Both the position numbers and the translations under genes were made by a program. From the NCBI RefSeq assembly GCF_900130045.1, contig NZ_FQXT01000005.1:248001-312000 (forward strand): 64,000 bases of DNA, in the 5' to 3' direction. Source of the stretch: Leeuwenhoekiella palythoae. Lineage in GTDB: Bacteria; Bacteroidota; Bacteroidia; Flavobacteriales; Flavobacteriaceae. A model generated the notes under the pieces. That model was given only the letters and a program-made list of their open reading frames with translations. It did no database searches and was not told the DNA's origin. This document shows, in pieces, positions 17,623-22,814 of the stretch. Every line of letters starts with the position of its first letter. Position 1 is the stretch's first letter.

Positions 17623-18966
17623 TTAGGTTTTCGGTAGCTTAATTTCCCAATAACCTTGTGTGCCACCTTGACGTACCAAAACACCTTTGTTCTTGATAGC
17701 TGTTATATGTTTTCCAACAGCAGATTCATTAATACCTAAAGCGTCTGCTATTTCATTGTAAGTTATAGATGGATTTGCAGCTATAAGCTTAACAACTTCT
17801 TTTTGTCTTTTAGTAAGTGTATCTATAGCATCTATTGCACCACCTGTTACACCACCTATTGCACCACCTTTTTGACCACCTTCTTCAACAGCAGTTTCTT
17901 TGGCCATAAATGTCATTCTAAGAAAGTTATCTGAAAAATTAAAGCTCTCTTTGCCATAGTGCTCCAAAATACGAGGGATGCCAGAACCTAATTGTTCCAC
18001 CAGTTCCAAATCCTTAAAAATCCGCATCAGTTCTTTGTTCCGAGGGACTGAAAAGCCTTCGAAAAATTCCTGTTTGCTCAAACCTTCTGGCAGACCACCA
18101 GCTGATGTGATTTCAATTCTATCCGTAAAGATTTCAAACTTTGGGGTAATCTCATTGGTATAGTCATTATGCACAAAGGCATTAATGATTGCTTCACGCA
18201 AAGCGATGGGATGCCAAAGGTTGGCTTGTTGTCGTTCTTTGGCTGTGATTTTGGTAGCGGTTCTGTTCTCGACCGCAATTTTATCTATCACTTGTTTAGT
18301 GGCCTTGACTAAACATTCGTGACCATATTCATTGCTTTCTATTAAGTCAGTACGGGTCTTTCCTGAATATTTGGCAACTTTTATAGAGGTATTGTTTTTG
18401 TCGGCCAACAAATAGCCGGCGTAATTGAATGCACCATCCTCGGTAAGTAGTTCCAAGTTCTTTGCAAAAGCATTGCCGAGGGTGTAACCAGCTTCCTCAT
18501 AGTAGATTTTCAACTGGCTAAAGCTTAAATCTTGTCGCCCTGCTTTAATCTTACTGATGGAATTTCGAGTACGTTTAGCAAACAGCTCGTCTATCATCTT
18601 TTGTGGCATCGGTTCAGCTGCTGAGCCTAAGCGTATAAAACAGCCCTTTTCGCTCATCCCATACTTTTTGAGATGATAGGGTTTCTCGGGACCGCTCGCC
18701 ACGATGATTTTCAGGATATCATTGCCATCTCTTTCCTCGCTCACGATGTCAAATAAACCCAAAGCAGAAGGACGGATATTATTCTTCAGTCTATCTTTAA
18801 TCTTCAACTGGTCGCTGTCTGCATCAGCCAAACCATAGGTGTTTCCGTCTTTATCGATACCAATATATAGAATGCCACCTTCACGGTAGTTCAGAAATGC
18901 AATGACTTCTTTTTCAAGCCCATCGGACAATTCTCGTTTGTATTCTATGCGGTTTGTTTCTGGCAT
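17623..18966 (-). CDS. AlbA_2/Schlafen-type ATP-binding transcriptional regulator
   Basis: This 447-residue protein has an N-terminal AlbA_2 (Schlafen-like) domain (about 1-130, with IEYKRE and GGILYIGIDKDG), a GHKL-type ATPase domain of the RecG-like regulator family (about 240-355, with ALREAIINAFVHNDY and a conserved LGSGIPRI end) and a C-terminal winged helix (about 385-445). A Gly-rich spacer (GG repeats near residue 365-380) joins the last two. Such genes are common in mobile and defence regions and are usually called ATP-dependent transcriptional regulators; their targets are mostly unknown. It is convergent to the DUF4878 gene and flanked by an imperfect 18-base direct repeat (about 17588-17606 and 19060-19078). 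Confidence 0.75.
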   Translation of the reverse strand: MPETNRIEYKRELSDGLEKEVIAFLNYREGGILYIGIDKDGNTYGLADADSDQLKIKDRLKNNIRPSALGLFDIVSEERDGNDILKIIVASGPEKPYHLKKYGMSEKGCFIRLGSAAEPMPQKMIDELFAKRTRNSISKIKAGRQDLSFSQLKIYYEEAGYTLGNAFAKNLELLTEDGAFNYAGYLLADKNNTSIKVAKYSGKTRTDLIESNEYGHECLVKATKQVIDKIAVENRTATKITAKERQQANLWHPIALREAIINAFVHNDYTNEITPKFEIFTDRIEITSAGGLPEGLSKQEFFEGFSVPRNKELMRIFKDLELVEQLGSGIPRILEHYGKESFNFSDNFLRMTFMAKETAVEEGGQKGGAIGGVTGGAIDAIDTLTKRQKEVVKLIAANPSITYNEIADALGINESAVGKHITAIKNKGVLVRQGGTQGYWEIKLPKT

Positions 18967-19256: not shown

Positions 19257-19916
19257 TCACTGACCAATTAATAAACCTCCACCAGAAAGCAAATTCTTCA
19301 CATCAAACAGTTGATCAAAAGAACTAACTGCAAGTCCTCCTAAAGGGCAACTTTTCAAATTCAAATAATTTGCTACTAATTGTAAGCAGTAAAGCAAGGC
19401 TCCAGCATCTCTCCAATATAGACTTTCTGGATTAGTGTATTTTGTCTTCGTTTTATTAGTTTGGATTGCAAACCAAATTAAACATCCTTTATCAATTGGT
19501 AAATTCATATTTACATCTTCAAAAAAATGTTTAAGATTTTCTTGGGACAATGAAAGTTCACCAAGAGAATGCTCAATAGGATTGTAATAATGAAGTAATC
19601 TTTTATCTTCTGAAGGAAGTGATATTAATATGTCTACTGGATGCCTACCTCCAGCAGATGGTACCGTTCTCTTGGATATTAAATACCCCGATTCATCAAT
19701 ATCTATTTGTTGAATGTTATTGCTTAAAAATAGCAATTCACTTATTGTATCAAGCGATATACTTCCAAGTTCTGCAGAGGATCTTCGAGTTAATAATACA
19801 TCTAAAAAATCTCTTTCCTTTTTATCGAAAGTACGTTTTAACCTTTTTTTTGAACTGATTGGATAATCAAAAGGGACAAACTCTTGAATTGTTTTTTTAG
19901 GTTTTGGATTTTCCAT
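19257..19916 (-). CDS. SagB-type FMN nitroreductase-family oxidoreductase
   Basis: This 219-residue protein of the nitroreductase superfamily is closest to SagB-type dehydrogenases. It shows the R-R-S FMN phosphate motif at about residues 44-46, a TVPSAGGRHP segment near residue 86 typical of SagB/thiazoline-oxidase-like proteins, and a YWRDAGALLYCLQLVAN helix in the C-terminal half. It uses FMN, but its substrate is unknown. The start is the ATG at 19916, sharing one base with the QueC-like stop (TGATG); an upstream TTG is also in frame. It is the last gene of the five-gene operon. No YcaO cyclodehydratase, which SagB usually accompanies in thiazole/oxazole peptides, is near. Confidence 0.75.
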   Translation of the reverse strand: MENPKPKKTIQEFVPFDYPISSKKRLKRTFDKKERDFLDVLLTRRSSAELGSISLDTISELLFLSNNIQQIDIDESGYLISKRTVPSAGGRHPVDILISLPSEDKRLLHYYNPIEHSLGELSLSQENLKHFFEDVNMNLPIDKGCLIWFAIQTNKTKTKYTNPESLYWRDAGALLYCLQLVANYLNLKSCPLGGLAVSSFDQLFDVKNLLSGGGLLIGQ

Positions 19917-20515
19917 CAATCCAAGTTAAGCGATTGTAGAGTAAACAAGTACTTTTTACAGCCATTGCAATTCATACAGGGTTCGTTTGAGGTGTGACAA
20001 GAATGAGCCCATAGTAATAACGACTCAGGCAATTTAGATTTACGTATTAATTCTATCGTGGTTAAATCTATAGCAGGGCAACTAATTTTTATTGCTCCTT
20101 CTTGATACTGAACAAGAGTTGATAAGTAACTGTAAAACTCCATTGTTCCATCCTTATGAGCATCATCAGTCTTAACAGAACCTACAATTAATTCGTTAAT
20201 TCCCAGAACAACGCCTTTCATACAGGCTAAGGTGACTAATAATTGATTCCTGTAGGGCCACCATTCGGAAACTGGGGACATCGATATTGAAGGTTTACTG
20301 CTCATATCTCCTGAACCTAAACTCCCGCAGTCTACCCTAATTATGTGATGGTCTATTGACAATTCTTTAGACACCTGTCTTGCTGCATTAATTTCTGCCA
20401 ATGCAGCTTTTTGACCATAGTCTAATGTAAAGGCATATTTAGGTCTTTTTAAATAGGCGAGAGCAATTGAGTCCATTCCACCTGATAGTAATATTGCCGA
20501 GTTATTTTTTTGCAA
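19916..20515 (-). CDS. QueC-like PP-loop enzyme
   Basis: This 199-residue protein is a QueC homologue. The PP-loop SGGMDS (11-16) binds ATP, WWPYRNQ (85-91) replaces the usual VPGRN-type motif, and four cysteines (C173, C180, C183, C186) form the zinc site. True QueC makes preQ0 from carboxy-deazaguanine for queuosine; no queD, queE or queF is near, and the protein is shorter than typical QueC (about 220-230). QueC-like proteins also occur in defence systems (QatC; Cap9 of type IV CBASS), where Cap9 is reported to attach a deazaguanine to a partner protein. The start appears to be TTG at 20515, 14 bases inside the upstream gene; there is no ATG before the PP-loop. Confidence 0.8.
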   Translation of the reverse strand: MQKNNSAILLSGGMDSIALAYLKRPKYAFTLDYGQKAALAEINAARQVSKELSIDHHIIRVDCGSLGSGDMSSKPSISMSPVSEWWPYRNQLLVTLACMKGVVLGINELIVGSVKTDDAHKDGTMEFYSYLSTLVQYQEGAIKISCPAIDLTTIELIRKSKLPESLLLWAHSCHTSNEPCMNCNGCKKYLFTLQSLNLD

Positions 20516-21713
20516 GTTCCCAGTAAAGTTTATAAATAGCTGTTGTAAAATCTCTTTCTATTATGCAGTGAGTGCCTTCTAACATTTTTATAGATTCTTC
20601 ACCCTCCTTTTGAACAAATGCGATCACCTTCTTTTTTTGGCAGATCGCGTAACCCACCTCAAATAGAGTTCCTGAATCCAGCCCATCTATTACTGCGAAA
20701 ACAATCTCCGATTCATCCAAACCTTGTAAATCTTTATCGACGACATCTTTCGCTTTTCCGTGACCGACATCGTGAAAAGGTGAAAACACTTTTAAACCAA
20801 TAGACTTGAAAGTATTCCATACCTCATTAATCAACCATCTTTCACTAAACGTGAAAAATGGACCTGCAAGGTAAATTTGTCCATTTGGCACTTTATCTAT
20901 CACTAATTTTTCAAATGAAAAGTTTTTAAGTCTATCAACAATTGAAAGATCTTTAGAATCACAGTATAATGCTGTAGCCTTGCTCGCTAATATCGCACTC
21001 GATTCAATATCTCGACCTTTAAACCAATTCATAGCAAAAAAAGCGGAAAACACGTCTCCTGAACCAATCGTCCAAACGGAATTCGTTTTGAATACTGGTA
21101 TTCTTACAGGCTCTTTTTTTGCTGGTTGAAATAAAAGGGCTCCTTTCGCGCCCATTTTTATTATAATTGCGGAACACTTTTCGGAATCAAAAAAGTAATC
21201 AACTATATCTCCTAAATCCAATAGACCAGTTAACTTTTTCGCTTCACCAATATTTATAATGGTAATGAGATCATCTGCAATAGAACCTGTATCTGAAAAA
21301 GAGATTGGATTTGCGGGTGATTGGGGATCATAAACAACCTTGCTACCTTTTACTGAAACTGAAGCTTCTAATAAGCCAAAAAAGAGGATGTTTTTTCCCT
21401 CAACATTTAATTCTGGTTTGTTTTCACTAAATAGATCAGACCTTGGAACTATCATAGGGGTTCGTAGTGGATAATCGTAATGAAACTCAGGACTTTTAGA
21501 AATGTCAGTGATATTGTTTCTTAGACTCGGATTTAGCCTTTGAAAATAGCCCAAATGCGCCTTTATTTCTTCATCACCACAAGTATGAAATTCAACAGAT
21601 TCAAAATCACTATTTTGTAAAATTAAATCAACTGCACGAAAACCCGAACCGTAGATATTCTCCCATATGGGTTCAAAGCAAATCTCGGTATAAGTACCCC
21701 CAACTACAATCAT
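20502..21713 (-). CDS. Fusion: PfkB-family kinase plus nucleoside 2-deoxyribosyltransferase
   Basis: This 403-residue protein has two parts. Residues 1-270 resemble PfkB/ribokinase-type sugar or nucleoside kinases, with WTIGSGDVFSAFF near residue 214-226; D220 in GSGD is the expected catalytic base. Residues 278-403 form a nucleoside 2-deoxyribosyltransferase domain: YLAGPF (281-286) and DSGTLFEVGYA with D346 and catalytic Glu352. Together they could swap or release a base on a (deoxy)ribose and phosphorylate the sugar or nucleoside, but the substrate is unknown. The ATG overlaps the upstream stop by 4 bases. Both active sites look intact, and the fusion is unusual. Confidence 0.8.
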   Translation of the reverse strand: MIVVGGTYTEICFEPIWENIYGSGFRAVDLILQNSDFESVEFHTCGDEEIKAHLGYFQRLNPSLRNNITDISKSPEFHYDYPLRTPMIVPRSDLFSENKPELNVEGKNILFFGLLEASVSVKGSKVVYDPQSPANPISFSDTGSIADDLITIINIGEAKKLTGLLDLGDIVDYFFDSEKCSAIIIKMGAKGALLFQPAKKEPVRIPVFKTNSVWTIGSGDVFSAFFAMNWFKGRDIESSAILASKATALYCDSKDLSIVDRLKNFSFEKLVIDKVPNGQIYLAGPFFTFSERWLINEVWNTFKSIGLKVFSPFHDVGHGKAKDVVDKDLQGLDESEIVFAVIDGLDSGTLFEVGYAICQKKKVIAFVQKEGEESIKMLEGTHCIIERDFTTAIYKLYWELAKK

Positions 21714-22039
21714 ATTGGTCGTATTTGAATCTTACATTGGCCTCCAGATATAGAAATTACTTCTGCCGTATATTCAGTACCAGAAATTATACAGTTAAGT
21801 AGCTTTACCTGTTCTCTTGAAATAATATTTCCAGCTAAATTGCCCTCAGCATCAAAAGCCTGTATAGGACCTTGATCTGAAGCTATAGTGATTTCAAGAA
21901 AATCCCCTTGATTCAAACTTGATACAACTTCGGGCTGTGGTGAAGCTAAATTGGTATTAATGATTAGGCCTTCACAATTTTCATTCTGATTGGGGCGATT
22001 AATAGATGGAATTCCTCCACCTCCTGAACTTCCTGACAT
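21710..22039 (-). CDS. Small protein with Ser/Gly-rich N-terminus, unknown function
   Basis: This 109-residue protein matches no family I recognise. It begins with Met-Ser-Gly-Ser-Ser followed by four Gly, then about 25 polar residues that look disordered. From about residue 40 to the end a pattern of short beta strands and turns (GDFLEITIAS, AEVISIS, KIQIRPI) suggests a small beta barrel. Three cysteines (22, 83, 102) are present. It has no signal peptide or membrane segment. Its gene lies 4 bases after the glycosylase gene and overlaps the kinase fusion by 4 bases. In an operon of modifying enzymes it may be the protein substrate or a scaffold; this is inference. Confidence 0.7.
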   Translation of the reverse strand: MSGSSGGGGIPSINRPNQNENCEGLIINTNLASPQPEVVSSLNQGDFLEITIASDQGPIQAFDAEGNLAGNIISREQVKLLNCIISGTEYTAEVISISGGQCKIQIRPI

Positions 22040-22043
22040 ATGA

Positions 22044-22655
22044 TTACTGATTTATTAATTTTAAAACGTTTCGATTTGCTTGCTTCATCTGCAACCAGAT
22101 TAAAGCATCCATTCTTGAAGGCAGAACATCTAATTCTCCACAAAATTTCAAGAAAATATGCTCTAATTTAACATAATCTTTTTGAACGGAATAAGATTGT
22201 TTATAGAGACCCATTATTAGCAAAGCTCGATAGATATGGATGTCTATTATAGCTACATTTTCACTATTAAGATAATTTCTCGTGACCCAAGCTGCGGTTT
22301 TAGGGCCAATACCGTTAATTGATAACAACCAATCCCGCAATTCAATGTCATCAAATAATGGAATATTATCTAAGTCATTTCTATTTAGAAATTGTGTGAT
22401 ATACTTAGATTTCTGGTTTGGAAAACGATATCGAATCTTCTTCCCATTTAATTCAAAGGGCTTTTCTAAGCAGGAAATAATGTCTTCATATTTAGTTCCA
22501 CTTCTGATTAGATTTTTTCTCCTCAAACGGTCAAACGCTGCTAACCCTACTTCAGATTTCAGCCCGAATCCACCAAGCAAACAAGCCACTACTTCTTCGT
22601 AGATATTATCTCCAAATCGGTATTCAATATCGAATTTGTCATTTTCAGTATACAT
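22044..22655 (-). CDS. HhH-GPD (OGG-like) DNA glycosylase-family protein
   Basis: This 203-residue protein has the helix-hairpin-helix GPD fold of 8-oxoguanine glycosylase-type enzymes. The hairpin INGIGPKTAAW carries the candidate catalytic Lys119, and VAIIDIHIYR supplies Asp138. There is no iron-sulfur cysteine cluster. It could act on DNA or, as suggested for related proteins in type IV CBASS, on a different base-linked substrate. It is the first gene of the five-gene operon and begins 45 bases after the 3' end of the tRNA gene, perhaps sharing its transcript. A hairpin covers the ribosome-binding region (22659-22677). Confidence 0.8.
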   Translation of the reverse strand: MYTENDKFDIEYRFGDNIYEEVVACLLGGFGLKSEVGLAAFDRLRRKNLIRSGTKYEDIISCLEKPFELNGKKIRYRFPNQKSKYITQFLNRNDLDNIPLFDDIELRDWLLSINGIGPKTAAWVTRNYLNSENVAIIDIHIYRALLIMGLYKQSYSVQKDYVKLEHIFLKFCGELDVLPSRMDALIWLQMKQANRNVLKLINQ

Positions 22656-22658
22656 TAA

Positions 22659-22677
22659 ATACTGAACCTTCCAGTAT
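22659..22677 (-). promoter_or_regulatory. Hairpin around the ribosome-binding site of the five-gene operon
   Basis: On the reverse strand ATACTG and CAGTAT pair around a seven-base loop GAAGGTT that holds a Shine-Dalgarno-like GGAAGG (first G in the stem). The ATG at 22655 follows 3 bases after the stem. It could tune translation; it has no T-run, so it is not a terminator. Confidence 0.35.
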
Positions 22678-22699
22678 GCAGGTGTAAGAAAAAATATAG

Positions 22700-22772
<73 letters not shown>

Positions 22773-22783
22773 ATATTGGACGG

Positions 22784-22814
22784 CAAATATACAACCCTTT
22801 TTCTGTTCTCACAA
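22784..22814 (-). promoter_or_regulatory. Promoter of the initiator tRNA gene
   Basis: On the reverse strand a TTG (22814-22812) is followed after 20 bases by TATATTTG (22791-22784), a perfect TAnnTTTG element of the Bacteroidota type, 11 bases before the mature 5' end of the tRNA. It may also drive the five-gene operon by read-through. Confidence 0.65.

Follow-up and report, generated by a model that had tools for sequence, protein, structure and literature searches.

QueC chemistry is used in defence by type IV cyclic oligonucleotide-based antiphage signalling systems (CBASS) and by qatABCD. An OGG gene is also found in type IV CBASS, in which the QueC-like enzyme is Cap9. According to the available text of PMC13279940, residue Y115 of Cap9 stacks on the base and D117 reads its N1/N2 positions. 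A further group of the QueC family (PF06508), designated cluster 4, is described in the main text of Libby et al. (2026, PMC13329287) by the motif CH(x)5CxxCxGCxK and by a PF00294-PF05014 gene that lies in the operon in about 88% of cases; that text interprets cluster 4 as purine salvage. The locus discussed here is an operon of five genes in Leeuwenhoekiella palythoae, located in a 64,000-nucleotide stretch (the window) that spans positions 248,001 to 312,000 of contig NZ_FQXT01000005.1. The genes are abbreviated OGG (glycosylase), SP (small protein), PN (PfkB-deoxyribosyltransferase), QC (QueC-like) and SB (SagB-like). The operon is best understood as one copy of a mobile, probably anti-phage cassette with the core SP-PN-QC, in which, on a reading to which we lean slightly, QC joins 7-carboxy-7-deazaguanine (CDG) to the N-terminus of SP. 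The genes are arranged as follows, in the order in which they would be transcribed.

22044..22655, reverse strand: OGG, an OGG-like helix-hairpin-helix (HhH) glycosylase/lyase, 5'-truncated, 203 aa from the remaining ATG (Pfam, alignment)
21710..22039, reverse strand: SP, 109 aa, N-terminus MSG, with a Gly/Ser-rich low-confidence tail at about residues 1-22 and a predicted HIRAN-like fold at 23-109
20502..21713, reverse strand: PN, a PfkB-like kinase fused to a nucleoside 2-deoxyribosyltransferase-like (NDT) domain (Pfam, conserved residues)
19916..20515, reverse strand: QC, a QueC-like ATP-dependent ligase of the PF06508 cluster-4 type, 199 aa (Pfam, motifs)
19257..19916, reverse strand: SB, a SagB/nitroreductase-like oxidoreductase, with a likely ATG start at 19916 (the listed open reading frame, or ORF, starts from TTG at 19919)

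From OGG to SB the genes are separated by a 4-base gap and then overlap by 4, 14 and 1 (or 4) bases, which bears out an earlier sequence-only reading of this DNA that had described five reverse-strand genes with gaps or overlaps of 1-14 bases. The Pfam assignments are all above cut-off: Ogg-HhH (PF22175) at 63.5 bits against a cut-off of 27, with the catalytic Lys/Asp pair in place, PfkB at 46.8 and Nuc_deoxyrib_tr at 60.5 for the two halves of PN, QueC at 76.9, and Nitroreductase at 34.4. SB, designated a SagB-type reductase in the earlier reading, also scores 69.4 bits on the SagB model TIGR03605, under its cut-off of 78.4. No Pfam family matches the 109-residue SP above its cut-off. When the five operon proteins were compared with PADLOC, the sole match was to its QueC model, and neither the ORF list nor Pfam nor PADLOC revealed a CD-NTase, a tRNA-guanine transglycosylase (TGT), an ATPase or a TatD protein among the operon genes of the window.

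Scanning genome contigs with QC gave 97 relatives, the best 80 of which were taken as homologous loci; some of these are cut by contig ends, and the 64 loci with enough flank were used for full gene-content counts. The taxa represented by the 80 loci include Bacteroidota, Pseudomonadota, Verrucomicrobiota, Actinomycetota and haloarchaea, and profile searches of their ORFs recovered SP in 73, PN in 75, OGG in 54 and SB in 35. SP, PN and QC occur together in 63 of the 64 full-flank loci, the exception being L065, which has no SP. OGG is present in 46 of the 64 and is sometimes encoded on the opposite strand, SB is present in 29, every one of which also has OGG, and a dGTPase is present in 15. 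Outside the 64, SB was seen without OGG near contig ends at L019, L028 and L047. The core of the cassette is SP-PN-QC, and OGG, SB, the dGTPase and a Dam-type methylase are optional modules that vary by lineage, so that the five-gene system of the sequence-only reading contracts to three genes with accessories. The five families have correlated distance matrices (r 0.68-0.86), and none of 200 shuffles gave values as high. Because the gene set recurs in the 80 loci while the flanking genes vary between them, the set is a separate unit, as that reading had held and by the test it had set for its own refutation.

The cassette is mobile and spans archaea to Escherichia coli. QC matched 24 of 72,556 plasmid records, and all six of the plasmid copies inspected carry SP-PN-QC, three of them together with OGG and an opposite-strand Dam-type methylase. 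A query from Citrobacter matched 22 of 5,426 E. coli genomes, 18 of them across at least 80% of its length. Three of the five E. coli copies inspected are one block consisting of SP-PN-QC-SB, OGG-Dam and a dGTPase, found at two sites (ssb1-yjcB and selC), and the other two are remnants broken by insertion sequences that retain SP-type and PN pieces (L172 11905-12800; L173 10268-12616). The Dam-type methylase lies beside OGG in the inspected copies of Citrobacter, P. aeruginosa and Synechocystis and in the three E. coli blocks; a single-sequence search of the 80 loci gave no match to it, and it is therefore lineage-specific or too divergent. Among the 80 viral contigs kept, five (L083-L087) carry SP-PN-QC, one of them with a partial QC; no SP was found at 1e-5 near the weaker QueC-family viral loci L088-L162, and a search of phage records with QC gave no match. 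Two variants of gene order were also seen. Six loci (L058, L060, L061, L062, L080 and L086) have a second SP-PN pair after QC, and two such pairs with a single QC fit the idea of QC as a shared modifying enzyme. L074 and L075 have one ORF between PN and QC and another after QC, which may be chance ORFs; the two in L074 have no Pfam match at 1e-4.

The residues expected of active enzymes are retained across alignments of 51 OGG, 68 PN and 71 QC sequences, the window row included. OGG Lys119 and Asp138 are conserved in 51 of 51, Asp220 of the PfkB half of PN in 68 of 68 and Glu352 of its NDT half in 66 of 68, the two exceptions being the PN of the second pair in L058 and that in L061. In QC, the SGGxDS motif and the four cysteines C173, C180, C183 and C186 are present in all 71 sequences, as are Y33-G34, E41, G67, G69, EWWPYRNQ, D117, D122-G123, F127, Q138-E139, S172 and K188. 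The statement of the sequence-only reading that each enzyme has its key residues intact is thus correct for the residues and needs qualifying for OGG, the gene itself being 5'-truncated (see below). When the QC profile was compared with solved structures, the matches at 1e-3 were Cap9 (9nto, 5.7e-16) and two QueC proteins. QC Asp122 aligns with the guanine-reading D117 of Cap9 and is kept in all 71 sequences, and QatC has Thr at the positions of both Y115 and D117. QC has HxDG and YGQ(x)5E in place of the canonical QueC motifs YPDC and YxQxHxxE, and it scores 67 bits on TIGR00364, under the cut-off of 150.3.

The candidate acceptor for the product of QC is SP. Members of the SP family begin with Met, then Ser, Gly, Ala or Thr, then Gly, followed by a Gly/Ser-rich tail; Cys83 is invariant and a second Cys near residue 22 is frequent. 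Residues 23-109 resemble HIRAN domains in a comparison of predicted folds. The description of SP as simply a Gly-rich small protein therefore falls short, since it is a conserved family with a predicted ordered domain. A CBS-domain identity for SP was considered and rejected, the best E in a profile search of the PDB being 0.01. From its sequence features, SP is proposed to accept a nucleobase and would be the key new part of the cassette.

Candidate genes for making such a base lie beside the operon at two of the six actinobacterial loci (L064, L071 and L076-L079, with L071 cut just before QC). In L076 the order OGG-SP-PN-QC is followed by QueD-like and QueE-like genes in a row, and in L064 the QueD-like and QueE-like genes lie 4.4-4.6 kb after the QC start. 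The operon QC is the sole strong QueC-family match in both genomes, and a queuosine route for CDG is therefore not evident there. For the phylum background, a QueE-type match at 1e-10 was found in 37 of 198 sampled genomes, with the centre genome G035 included, and QC was found in one of 396, the centre itself. QueD and QueE were also sought in 39 genomes, comprising that of L. palythoae and the genomes that carry 38 of the 80 loci. A QueD-family (PTPS) match is present in 35 of these, a QueE match at 1e-8 or better in 32 and a QueE above the curated cut-off in one, and nine have a further QueC-family gene of at least 195 bits. The L. palythoae genome has two QueD-family matches, one QueE and no other QueC.

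Taken together, the acceptor-like tail of SP, the guanine-reading Asp of QC and the CDG-type genes at two loci make deazaguanylation of the SP N-terminus the best reading. In the first and best-supported step, QC would use ATP to activate the carboxylate of CDG supplied by QueD and QueE, and would join CDG to the amine at the free N-terminus of SP (Ser/Gly/Ala-Gly once Met has been removed), much as Cap9 does with its CD-NTase. In a second and more speculative step, PN might act on the attached or the free base, with the NDT half transferring (deoxy)ribose to or from it and the PfkB half phosphorylating the sugar. In a third, equally speculative, the HIRAN-like domain of SP might take the modified tail to nucleic acid. 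The sequence-only reading had anticipated QueC-like chemistry on a partner protein, which survives here as the best reading; its order of steps, in which a base supplied or removed by the fusion enzyme is oxidised by the SagB-like enzyme and the glycosylase acts on the product, is not supported.

Several observations weigh against deazaguanylation of SP. No QueE better than 4.2e-5 was found in seven of the 39 genomes (G020, G025, G032, G034 and G036-G038), and QueD is also missing in four of the seven (G020, G025, G037 and G038); CDG is therefore not obviously self-made there, and this is the chief argument against its being the sole substrate. The QueE matches, those of L064 and L076 among them, are under the curated cut-off of a model made for the B. 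subtilis type and are thus QueE-like by profile. At QC position 120, which aligns with the base-stacking Y115 of Cap9, 66 of the 71 sequences have His, three have Asn and two have Tyr. SP mostly starts with Ser-Gly, not Gly-Gly. When 61 SPs were scanned against Pfam, all matches were weak, with HIRAN (PF08797) not among the 25 of 31 families listed, and profile comparison (hhalign) of SP with four HIRAN proteins gave 1.8%, so that the HIRAN link is one of predicted fold alone. Support from the host's order was also dropped: QueE at E 1.3e-17 or better occurs in 56 of 60 genomes (G000, which is that of L. palythoae, and G039-G097), a nearly full-length QueC-family match occurs in three (the operon itself, G041 and G069), and QueE therefore stands mostly without QueC, operon or not. 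Within the genus, two of 13 genomes, L. palythoae included, have a full-length QueC-family match, namely the operon itself and G041. The G041 and G069 genes (C1:354538-355137 and C1:17193-17795, respectively) are frames of 205-210 aa that score 127-131 bits; the higher score of the G041 gene suggests another subfamily, and both genes are possibly Cap9 or another subfamily.

The case for defence comes from the neighbours of the cassette. At 1e-20, 100 genes taken from the flanks of 20 operons match 150 PADLOC models, compared with 18 for 99 control genes taken from the surroundings of QueD/QueE in those 20 genomes. The comparison counts models, not proteins, and covers 20 of the 80 loci at five genes each (100 of 158 test genes and 99 of 219 control genes), with 25 of the 150 flank models listed. 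Six of the 100 flanking genes are dGTPases, which are treated as a cassette accessory; the E. coli dGTPase itself matches PADLOC at E 3e-146. Gabija lies beside both the Citrobacter block and the block of E. coli KMi029, with identical accessions (GajA 1.5e-256, GajB 3.3e-151), Mrr-type and patatin genes were also seen near the cassette, and NACHT- and HEPN-annotated genes lie near one broken E. coli copy, where the NACHT-annotated protein has no PADLOC match. At the selC site of E. coli H6, a heat-resistance locus lies upstream of the block. The sequence-only reading had suggested checking co-occurrence of the families and their presence in defence islands: the set does recur, often among defence genes, and its neighbours are not defensive everywhere. 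From this island context the cassette probably has an anti-phage role. Among the 99 control genes (loci L174-L193), one is a strong match to DpdF (E 1.8e-202); it was sought in L189, where the four genes tested were negative.

Deoxyribosyltransferase effectors occur in retrons. It is possible, if doubtful, that PN is the effector here, its NDT half cleaving nucleosides, nucleotides or NAD during infection. SP and QC would then form a switch in which the base on SP is a regulatory tag, and the dGTPase variants would add nucleotide depletion. Consistent with this, SP and PN stay paired even where they are duplicated without a second QC, both catalytic residues of PN are kept almost throughout, each of the three complete E. 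coli blocks has a dGTPase, as do the 15 full-flank loci noted above, and the available text of PMC3710099 proposes deoxyribosyltransferase domains as conflict toxins. Yet the PfkB half, OGG and SB are left unexplained, and in L058 and L061 the NDT Glu is lost from the second PN. An elaboration of SP deazaguanylation, which we hold to be improbable, is a protein-nucleotide conjugate: QC would add the deazaguanine to SP, PN would add deoxyribose and then phosphate, and the HIRAN-like domain would place the resulting deoxynucleotide at DNA ends and so block phage DNA synthesis, with OGG and the dGTPase removing competing guanine. By our arithmetic, SP would then shift by +176, +292 and +372 Da in turn.

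Alternatively, the genes could serve purine salvage, with PN as a nucleoside deoxyribosyltransferase/kinase, QC amidating a free purine-like base and SP as a regulator. This is the interpretation given for cluster 4 in the main text of PMC13329287, and it accords with the retention of both catalytic sites of PN. It is nonetheless unlikely to hold for the cassette, since it does not explain SP, which is nearly as frequent as PN (73 and 75 of 80 loci), or the conserved SP tail, and the cassette is rare and mobile, as seen in the E. coli genomes and plasmid records, and is often near defence genes. Modification of DNA in the manner of Dpd, with OGG and the NDT domain swapping a deazaguanine into DNA and QC finishing the base, would account for the invariance of the OGG catalytic residues and for the Dam-type methylase beside OGG in the lineages named above. 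However, the operon genes of the window include no transglycosylase, OGG is missing from 18 of the 64 full-flank loci and the SP tail is again unexplained, all of which makes this explanation very improbable. A pathway like those of ribosomally synthesised and post-translationally modified peptides, in which the SagB-like enzyme matures SP as a precursor peptide, hardly deserves credence: it has in its favour the SagB-like gene and a small Gly-rich protein with the invariant Cys83 and a frequent Cys near 22, but SP has a predicted ordered domain, SB is confined to 29 of the 64 loci and no cyclodehydratase is found among the operon genes of the window.

The position of the operon in the L. palythoae genome is that of cargo at the right end of a conjugative-type element of about 37.7 kb inserted at a tRNA gene. 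The features at this end are listed below.

22656..22692, reverse strand: remnant of the OGG frame upstream of the remaining ATG; DNA homology to locus L001 ends at 22692
22697..22741, reverse strand: right copy of a 45-bp perfect direct repeat, the end of the element, at the tRNA-Met 3' end
22699..22772, reverse strand: tRNA-Met, the integration target (tRNA search)
22784..22791, reverse strand: promoter-like element TATATTTG, 11 bases before tRNA-Met

The left copy of the repeat is on the same contig outside the window (C6:233017-233061 of the L. palythoae genome), where ARAGORN found no tRNA-Met. Just inside it lies a tyrosine integrase gene (L203 5224-6426) with Arm-DNA-bind_5, SAM-like and Phage_integrase domains, and between the repeats Pfam identifies an efflux pump (ACR_tran and OEP), a P-type ATPase, TraG and TraM. 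Within the element, adjoining the operon, 17623-18966 of the window encodes a Schlafen AlbA_2/HATPase_c_4/winged-helix protein. The junction with tRNA-Met accounts for the state of OGG. In the 50 other OGG rows the alignment continues upstream of the window Met by 42-179 residues (median 59), and 46 of them have a (T/S)(P/A)(A/S)(Y/F)W motif in that part; because each row was taken from its earliest potential start codon, some of the extension may be noncoding. The OGG of L001 is an ATG-started ORF 59 residues longer than the window gene. The window frame is open for 12 codons further upstream (FLTPAYWKVQYL), and the homology to L001 stops beside the tRNA-Met 3' end at 22699. A search of the L. 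palythoae genome with the L001 OGG N-terminus found just the 16-residue remnant at the window and one chance-level match. By this comparison, the tRNA-Met junction has cut off the 5' end of the window OGG gene, and only the core and SB therefore look whole there. In an excised circle, the left flank might, judged by eye, supply OGG with another start, the element end at 22697 cutting the OGG frame. Since the promoter-like TATATTTG lies 11 bases before tRNA-Met, transcription of the tRNA may extend into the operon by read-through; a terminator-like hairpin with a T run is present beyond the left repeat copy and none is present behind the window tRNA-Met.

If QC does join CDG to SP, the cassette would add to type IV CBASS and qatABCD a third case of QueC chemistry serving defence, here with a small acceptor of HIRAN fold, and protein deazaguanylation would be a general strategy, no longer a special case. 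Cluster 4 of the QueC family would gain a concrete, testable substrate and would shift from salvage to probable immunity. The complete E. coli copies make experimental testing easy, and E. coli K-12 strains deleted for queC, queD or queE are in standard use.

The family is already partly in print, since QC has the SGGxDS and CH(x)5CxxCxGCxK motifs and the PF00294-PF05014 partner and belongs by these to cluster 4, differing in having YGQ(x)5E where cluster 4 has YGQ(x)6E. A word search of the main text of PMC13329287 found no nitroreductase, SagB, glycosylase, OGG, dGTPase, HIRAN or 'small protein', and no account of the operon beyond cluster 4 was found in the literature searched, a body outside which most subscription papers and bioRxiv fall. 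That reading had also held, correctly, that the operon belongs to neither type IV CBASS nor qatABCD, the genes diagnostic of these systems being absent. With SagB/McbC-type peptide dehydrogenases SB shares the match to TIGR03605, which is below the cut-off, and SB is optional in the cassette. SP is like HIRAN domains (HLTF, Rad5) and HamB of Hachiman by predicted fold, with no detectable sequence relation. With qatABCD the cassette shares a QueC-family enzyme and a partner with an N-terminal glycine tail (that of QatB is disordered and has an essential Gly motif), whereas the ATPase and TatD proteins of that system (QatA and QatD) are absent here, QatC is about 400 aa long compared with 199 aa for QC, and QatC has Thr in place of the guanine-reading Asp that QC keeps. 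With type IV CBASS it shares a QueC-like enzyme with a guanine-reading Asp, a partner whose tail begins with Met, a small residue and Gly, and a second glycosyl-type enzyme. Type IV CBASS, however, has a CD-NTase and a TGT (Cap10), whereas the cassette has neither and carries a deoxyribosyltransferase-kinase in place of the TGT, and the acceptor in type IV CBASS is the CD-NTase, while the acceptor proposed for the cassette is SP, with its HIRAN-like predicted fold.

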